Shown piece by piece: positions 1,837-2,610 of a stretch of DNA of 14,851 bases. The notes beneath the pieces were generated by a model. The model was not told where the DNA came from. It saw nothing but the letters and a program-made list of their open reading frames with translations, and searched no databases. The translations under genes were made by a program, and so were the position numbers. The DNA is from a bacterium (GTDB taxonomy: Bacteria; Patescibacteriota; Microgenomatia; UBA8517): the NCBI GenBank assembly GCA_021824385.1, contig JAKAKU010000046.1:1-14851 (forward strand), given 5' to 3'. Within the stretch, counting starts at the first letter, position 1. Each line of letters starts with the position of its first letter.

Positions 1837-2610
1837 ATGTTAACCAATCGAACAGCACGTATTGCACTCTATATAGTAGTCTCTCTTTTATATATTTCAT
1901 TTGTTAAAGAAATACGTGCACAAGTTAGTTCAAGTGGAATCGCTACGACCTATACACTCTCAGAAAAAATACCGAACGGGAGTGTTGTTTGCATAAAACA
2001 AGGAGGTATCGGTTATTGTGATATAAGTTATGATCCTGCTGTTTTCGGTATTGTGACAGACAGTTCTGCTGGTGCTATGGTTGATAACACTGCGACAGCA
2101 AGTGGAGCACTTGTTGTAAAAGAAGGAAACACACTTGTTAGAGTGAGCGCTTCGGCAGGCGCCATTAAAGTGGGCGATTTGCTTACGAATGCCAAAGAAG
2201 CAGGGCTTGCACAAAAAGCAAGCCACAACGGTTTCATTATTGGACAAGCTTTGCAAGACTTTTCGGGAGAAGGCGAGGGTACTATACTTATTGCACTTAA
2301 TATTGCACAGACGACCTCATTTACTGATGCGAGAAACAATCTTCTGGAAGTGATTCGATCGGGAATTCAGGCTCCAATTCTTACCCCTCTGGCCGTGCTG
2401 AGATATGTTCTCGCCGCCTTTATTTTAATTGTTGCGTTCATACTCGGGTTTGTTTACTTTGGACGCATGGCTCGAACCAGTGTTGAGGCAGTTGGGAGGA
2501 ATCCTTTGGCTTCAAGGACAATTCAAGTAAACATTATTGTTAACTTATTTTTGATGCTGATTATTTTCTCAATCGGGCTCGCCTTATCGTATTTGATACT
2601 CACCCTTTAA
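1837..2610 (+). CDS. Exported protein with C-terminal ATP-synthase subunit-c-like hairpin
   Basis: This is a 257-residue membrane protein. Residues 9-23 form a signal peptide or anchor, with possible cleavage after Ala28. Residues about 30-175 form an extracytoplasmic domain with two Cys (52 and 61). Its patterns ([30 protein letters not shown] and [11 protein letters not shown]) resemble a domain found in large surface or fibre-like proteins. Two helices follow (about 185-208 and 230-254), joined by a basic loop containing [14 protein letters not shown]. That loop and hairpin closely resemble F0 subunit c, whose polar loop carries RQP or GRNP and docks on gamma and epsilon. The predicted topology, loop in the cytoplasm and both ends outside, also matches. 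However, no Asp or Glu occurs after residue 217: the position of the ion-binding carboxylate, 18 residues after the loop Pro, is Leu241. It is the first gene of the F1 block and ends one base before gpmI. Its function is unknown. Confidence 0.8.

Follow-up and report, generated by a model that had tools for sequence, protein, structure and literature searches.

Mycoplasma F1-like ATPases are the closest described systems to the locus reported here. In the accessible text of three papers (PMC3369863, PMC12994834, PMC11864180), transfer of force to the cell surface is proposed for these enzymes and their non-F1 proteins are reported as having no known homologues. The gliding motor includes the glycolytic enzyme PGK, and its ATPase has no peripheral-stalk gene, according to the accessible part of PMC11864180. 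For Patescibacteria, the available portions of two reports set out a puzzle, namely that members of this group that have no respiratory chain keep an F-type ATP synthase (PMC11665869, PMC10633639). The available portion of a further paper records loss of canonical ATP synthase genes in 10/33 sampled CPR genomes (PMC10656485), and incomplete complexes have thus been reported from this group before.

Here we describe an operon from a member of the Patescibacteria in which a relative of F-type subunit c, fused to an N-terminal ectodomain and devoid of the ion-binding carboxylate, is encoded together with F1 genes. The operon lies in a stretch of 14,851 nucleotides, the whole of which was analysed and is called the window. 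We consider it fairly likely, with a probability of about 60%, that such loci encode a dedicated F1 motor whose membrane rotor does not translocate ions. No description of the system was found in the open literature, in a search that covered titles and the beginnings of abstracts and had subscription journals and preprints outside its scope.

Results

The window gene and its protein

The window protein runs from a signal-peptide-like start through a beta domain to a C-terminal hairpin (Table 1). The signal-peptide call used hydropathy and the AF2 helix only; in this region A28 is found in 59/81 and Q29 in 51/81 of the aligned sequences, the alignment consisting of the window protein and 80 named loci. 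Given this start and the known topology of subunit c, the ectodomain should lie outside the membrane. The AF2 monomer model (mean pLDDT 90.4, pTM 0.67) has helices at residues 184-221 and 223-256, which bears out the proposal of an earlier note on this DNA that the protein ends in two helices joined by a polar loop like that of subunit c. The two cysteines that the note placed in the ectodomain are present (residues 52 and 61), but each column holds Cys in only 33/81 aligned sequences.

In its best segment the closest named relative, from a Candidatus Woesebacteria genome, is 57% identical, and the remaining named relatives are mostly from Microgenomates-type Patescibacteria. Source names of relatives (120 of 246 matches; 7997 candidates scored) are either "hypothetical protein" or the automatic "F0F1-type ATP synthase membrane subunit c/vacuolar-type H+-ATPase subunit K". 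An assembly or pseudogene artefact was ruled out by the single open frame and by the 153 distinct acid-less hairpins described below.

Table 1. Features of the window, with the basis of each assignment
Feature	Position	Strand	Basis or remark
Divergent neighbour with MerR-type HTH and fibre-like region, possible partner only	1..1236	-	runs off window
Acid-less c-like subunit with ectodomain, 257 aa	1837..2610	+	ORF, HMM, alignment, AF2
Signal-peptide-like N terminus, residues 1-28	1837..1920	+	alignment, AF2 helix, hydropathy; putative cleavage
Extracytoplasmic beta domain, residues 35-159, phage capsid cement / head-fibre-base fold	1939..2313	+	AF2, Foldseek; Pfam below cut-off
c-like transmembrane hairpin, residues 184-256	2386..2604	+	HMM, AF2, Foldseek
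Polar loop [14 protein letters not shown], residues 215-228	2479..2520	+	ORF translation, alignment
Leu241 codon, position of the ion-binding carboxylate	2557..2559	+	alignment
gpmI, BPG-independent phosphoglycerate mutase	2612..4327	+	Pfam; same place in 17/80 named loci
b-like subunit, one N-terminal TM-like segment	4332..4943	+	position, family; no Pfam b match
Short delta-like subunit	4933..5334	+	OSCP E 0.084 (below cut-off), position, family
F1 alpha	5341..6798	+	Pfam
F1 gamma	6795..7637	+	Pfam
F1 beta, catalytic residues intact	7634..9007	+	Pfam, residue check
Short epsilon, 87 aa, beta-sandwich domain only	9004..9267	+	Pfam

The ion-binding carboxylate is missing throughout the family

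Leu241 had been proposed to occupy the place of the ion-binding Glu. It lies 18 residues past the loop proline, Pro223 (P+18), where all 53 distinct conventional c subunits of the class carry Glu; in the acid-less proteins this residue is I, V, L, A, G, F, T or M, and it proved neutral in every homologue examined. The second helix of the window protein was said to contain no Asp or Glu, and in fact neither membrane helix does. Across the family, Asp or Glu at P+11 to P+26 occurs in 0/176 hairpins (153 distinct). This set combines 73 sampled hairpins, 80 from named loci, 22 from phylum loci and one from genome G134; the sampled and named sets overlap, with 21 identical hairpins in common, and one ORF (L321, 15269-15961) was left out for want of a usable RNP motif. 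Outside P+11 to P+26, an acid is seen at column 232 (P+9) in 1/73 and Glu at column 230 in 4/73.

Seven residues do not vary within the alignment of 81 sequences (R221, N222, P223, L224, A225, I229 and G247); position 217 is restricted to E or D, and position 236 to N or H. No acid occurs in helix columns 187-212 and 231-257 of any of these sequences, which rules out a carboxylate shifted to helix 1. A cruder window from P-34 to P-10 picks up an acid in 3/176 hairpins: two (L035, L177) at P-10, on the loop edge, and one (L313) at P-16, a Glu in helix 1. The hairpin family thus has no counterpart of the ion-binding Asp/Glu expected of subunit c (PF00137), and we do not file it as subunit c in the functional sense.

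The hairpin is related to F-type subunit c

Two transmembrane helices and an R-N/Q-P loop are present, as in F-type subunit c, by alignment, AF2 and Foldseek. An HMM built from 73 hairpins was run against 876 ORFs taken from around the genes for conventional c and a in the class. It matched 61 true c ORFs, of which 53 are distinct, with E values from 1.1e-11 to 2.7e-5, and no non-c ORF among the 876 scored better than E = 1.2. In the reverse direction, two sets of ORFs from acid-less loci were searched with an HMM of conventional c; each yielded 59 matches at E < 1e-3, all of them hairpin proteins. The hairpin profile matched solved c subunits with a best E of 1.4e-5. A Foldseek search with the two-domain model was headed by phage capsid proteins, with c subunits from rank 30 on; these matches, to chloroplast, Chloroflexus and other rings, had E 0.03-0.2 and TM-scores to the target of 0.58-0.88. 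HMM separation and synteny together rule out a chance hairpin.

The Pfam model of subunit c, PF00137, does not match the window protein and gave only two weak matches among 32 relatives (best E 0.021). Two relatives with Ig-type ectodomains (L305, L307) do exceed its curated cut-off of 24 bits, at 30.6 and 27.7 bits. The proposed kinship with subunit c therefore stands on the two HMMs, Foldseek, the solved c subunits and these two relatives, but not on a direct PF00137 match of the window protein. Helix 1 of the cement-type proteins does not have the Gly-rich packing motif of ordinary c, so a cement-type ring may differ from ordinary rings or may not form.

Operon and synteny

The window operon (1837-9267) is limited to the eight genes listed in Table 1, which are tightly spaced or overlapping. 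Alpha, gamma, beta and epsilon score above their Pfam cut-offs; the names b-like and delta-like derive from position and from the families in other loci, as there was no Pfam b match and only a sub-threshold OSCP match. The hairpin gene occupies the atpE position. The earlier note had put it at the head of an F1 operon, and synteny with F1 genes agrees with this, although in the window gpmI separates the hairpin gene from the b-like gene. The presence of gpmI, a glycolytic enzyme gene, may be set beside that of PGK in the mycoplasma gliding motor, as given in the accessible part of PMC11864180.

Same-strand F1 or stalk genes lie downstream of the hairpin gene in 70/73 sampled class loci, within 1 kb in 67; the distance is 1.7 kb in the window and in L038, both with gpmI between, and 4.3 kb in L101. 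No same-strand F1 or stalk gene follows the hairpin gene in three class loci, L067, L086 (a 3.3-kb contig) and L095, the last having F1 genes about 10 kb away. The first F1 or stalk gene is b-like in 68/73 sampled loci. Among the named loci, which overlap with the sampled set, 78/80 have F1 or stalk genes, and gpmI alone is seen in the other two, L166 and L179; the first gene detected after the hairpin gene is b in 56 loci, gpmI in 17 loci and alpha in the remaining 7. A profile search detected no subunit a in the two sets of ORFs from acid-less loci and gave 60 and 24 positives in control sets, in keeping with the idea that these loci do not encode it. Conventional F1F0 operons of the class have the order c-b-delta-alpha-gamma-beta-epsilon. 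Three more divergent operons with c, alpha, gamma and beta (L263, L268, L269) were also seen, which we presume may be N-type ATPases.

In seven named loci (L183, L199, L205, L210, L213, L215, L224) b and delta are missing and alpha follows the hairpin gene, and the same is true of two sampled loci (L056, L058). The genome G033, which is a single contig and 99% complete, gave no b or delta match anywhere at E <= 1, and 7/7 other genomes matched in each search; F1 there has no known stator. Lineages without b and delta, where a brace for F1 is not evident, are the strongest fact against a motor. They would fit an F1 that is statically docked on the hairpin proteins and whose ATPase cycle serves to assemble, gate or place the surface domains with no continuous rotation. 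We regard such a static F1 as unlikely, though a serious competitor, since gamma is kept, the docking loop is invariant, and most loci retain b and delta. The mycoplasma gliding ATPase also does without a peripheral-stalk gene, so the missing b and delta are not fatal to the motor reading.

F1 subunits are intact and form a separate clade

Catalytic residues are intact: the Walker Lys, catalytic Glu and Arg of beta are present in 63/63 sequences, the Arg finger of alpha in 69/69 and its Walker Lys in 68/69. The cement-type F1 forms a separate clade with support of 0.982 (beta) and 0.997 (alpha) against 25 other copies per tree; one of these "conventional" rows is the Ig-type L264 (genome G134), and with this row relabelled 24 remain and the cement-type clade holds. 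Cement and short types make one clade in the beta tree (support 0.996), with the Ig and NHL types elsewhere, and the alpha tree unites all acid-less types at a support of 0.65. For these reasons a single origin of all acid-less systems is not claimed.

Epsilon C-terminal helices restrain hydrolysis in known bacterial F1. Epsilon measures 79-99 aa in 49/60 ORFs of acid-less systems, and these helices are therefore probably absent; it measures 135-159 aa in 18/21 conventional or divergent operons that carry c. A short epsilon is not specific to acid-less systems, for the conventional copy in the window genome itself, one of the three exceptions, has 88 aa.

Distribution within the class

Some match to the window protein was found in 106/187 class genomes, many of them only to the beta domain within large proteins. 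The F-type inventory was taken in the 66 genomes with a hairpin protein. PF00137 is also present in 46 of these and absent in 20, the window genome included (hand count). The other 19 PF00137-free genomes have no PF00119 match over cut-off (a single weak one, in G024, contains an internal stop); gamma is matched once in each, and 15/19 are at least 90% complete. In these 19 sampled genomes, besides the window genome, the acid-less system is the only F-type system found.

The window genome itself, a draft that is 67.9% complete, has no PF00137 and no PF00119 match. A contig of 3369 bases (L243, G000:C93) carries part of a conventional-type alpha followed by gamma, beta and epsilon, so an ordinary F0 may simply be unassembled. 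The search for a true atpE and atpB that the earlier note had proposed thus gave a mixed result, with none in the window genome or the 19 others, but with an ordinary c in 46/66 genomes and a conventional F1 fragment in the window genome. The pattern named there as telling against the idea was an ordinary F0 together with scattered homologues; the homologues are instead syntenic.

Co-occurrence with PF00137 would be in keeping with retained ion pumping, either by borrowing a conventional subunit a and mixing conventional c into the ring or through a site in other residues. This is very improbable in view of the 19 genomes that have neither Pfam family over cut-off and of the acid-free helix columns. 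Similarly, the conventional F1 fragment in the window genome could suggest that the acid-less operon is a decaying ATP synthase duplicate. That view is scarcely credible and is largely refuted by conservation: the loop is invariant, the catalytic residues are intact, and the operon is conserved across the class and occurs in other classes.

Ectodomains, the wider phylum and neighbouring genes

The ectodomain of the window protein has the fold of phage capsid cement and head-fibre-base proteins by AF2 and Foldseek; its Pfam matches to PF09956 and PF23982 are below cut-off. A hairpin-profile search of the phylum matched 212/379 genomes, conventional c included, and in at least 62 phylum genomes the matching frame is no shorter than 250 aa. 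Twenty phylum loci were fetched: F1 or stalk genes are near in 17, and L308, L313 and L322 have no F1 gene near. L305 and L307 have Ig-like ectodomains (Big_1, below cut-off), and the hairpin protein of L309 (5975-7498) has NHL repeats. L310 (8659-10152) has a layout similar to that of L309, and in both an unusually long b-like gene (517 aa in L309, 485 aa in L310) lies upstream. In L308 (8433-16202) a protein of 2589 aa ends in an acid-less c-like hairpin, and the 19 kb retrieved for this locus showed no F1 gene. In G134 a relative of 658 aa adjoins b and delta. Two hairpin proteins on opposite strands flank one F1 operon in L315 and in L317.

The divergent neighbour at the start of the window has its MerR-type HTH at the N terminus; a domain of DNA-binding type is unusual in a surface-type protein. 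Within 2 kb upstream of the hairpin gene, 32/69 eligible loci (no matched control) encode a large protein that either belongs to the HTH/surface family or has the same ectodomain, 19 of the 32 with an HTH-like motif. The other 37/69 eligible loci have no such large gene within 2 kb upstream; several presumably have leuS-like genes there instead. A giant neighbour is accordingly not claimed as an obligate partner. Giant proteins encoded in the same genomes also contain regions that resemble the ectodomain. These neighbours and this resemblance are the grounds for reading the system as an export or assembly apparatus for the adjoining large surface proteins, with F1 as a secretion-type ATPase. 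We find this improbable, as more than half of the eligible loci have no such gene and no export channel made of c-like hairpins is known.

Discussion

A probable motor directed to the cell surface

The polar loop of ordinary c docks gamma and epsilon. In the motor reading, copies of the hairpin protein would make up a c-type ring, the loops facing the cytoplasm and the N-terminal domains forming an outer crown. F1 would hydrolyse ATP and, with b and delta as a brace where these are present, would turn or strain the ring, so that work would be directed to surface structures and not to an ion gradient. Loss of the ion-moving residue, together with a domain outside the membrane, makes mechanical work at the surface probable in many of these ultra-small bacteria; judged from sequence, ATP is probably spent on such work rather than made. 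The predicted outside position of the ectodomain and the short epsilon are further reasons to prefer a rotor that translocates no ions, is driven by ATP hydrolysis and bears a crown at the surface. The motor would be common and the outer tools (cement-like, Ig-like and NHL-repeat ectodomains) specific to lineages, and ectodomains that differ between lineages are as expected of this arrangement.

The earlier note proposed a non-translocating ring that F1 can turn or hold, with domains presented outside the membrane. This interpretation is supported, in that its testable parts held; ring assembly, rotation and the outside role are predictions. In its broader form, that Patescibacteria possess ATP-driven rotary surface machines in which F1 spins an ion-inert c-type ring and the outer domain is swapped between lineages (phage-cement-like, Ig-like, NHL repeats or very large), we would give the idea an even chance.

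If the motor reading is true, a relative of subunit c links a rotary ATPase to the cell surface in place of ion transport. The path from an ATP synthase to a surface motor could then be traced, which is of interest beside the mycoplasma motors given what the accessible text says of their non-F1 proteins. In lineages without a conventional F0 the machine would have been counted as an ATP synthase. Because the only F-type system found in 19 sampled genomes is by its sequence not an ion-driven synthase, counts of F1 genes would overestimate ATP synthases in the group. The system may bear on the puzzle of the retained ATP synthase in Patescibacteria (PMC11665869, PMC10633639), the acid-less variant being known here from the sampled genomes.

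Comparison with known systems

The two-helix hairpin, the R-N-P polar loop and the atpE position are shared with F-type subunit c (PF00137), from which the family differs in the carboxylate (0/176 hairpins), the N-terminal ectodomain and the absence of subunit a from the loci. The ordinary F1F0 ATP synthase of the class shares the gene order from c to epsilon; in contrast, it has subunit a and a Glu-bearing c, and its alpha and beta fall outside the cement-type clade. The ring of Acetobacterium woodii (4bem) is a precedent for a c hairpin without a carboxylate, other hairpins of that ring keeping their sites. One of its chains, 4bem_J, matches the hairpin profile weakly (E 0.01), but here the operon encodes no carboxylate-bearing c. 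Phage capsid cement and head-fibre-base proteins (PF09956, PF23982; the Pam3 capsid, phi29 gp8.5) have the same fold as the ectodomain, but the latter follows a signal-peptide-like start and is fused to a membrane hairpin.

Mycoplasma Type 2 (G1, gliding) and Type 3 (F1-like X0, MIB-MIP) clusters, as presented in the accessible text of PMC3369863, PMC12994834 and PMC11864180, encode alpha, beta, gamma and epsilon with a protein that has a signal peptide, an ectodomain and two C-terminal transmembrane segments. The similarity in principle that the earlier note saw holds at the level of this layout. It does not extend to the whole cluster: the accessible text of PMC12994834 and PMC3369863 gives the mycoplasma clusters a 12-TM protein of their own and no b homologue, whereas here a b-like gene is usual, and the window operon has no gene beyond the eight in Table 1 that might encode a 12-TM protein. 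By analogy, we file the system as one that would work like the mycoplasma F1-like motor and would derive from an F-type ATPase.
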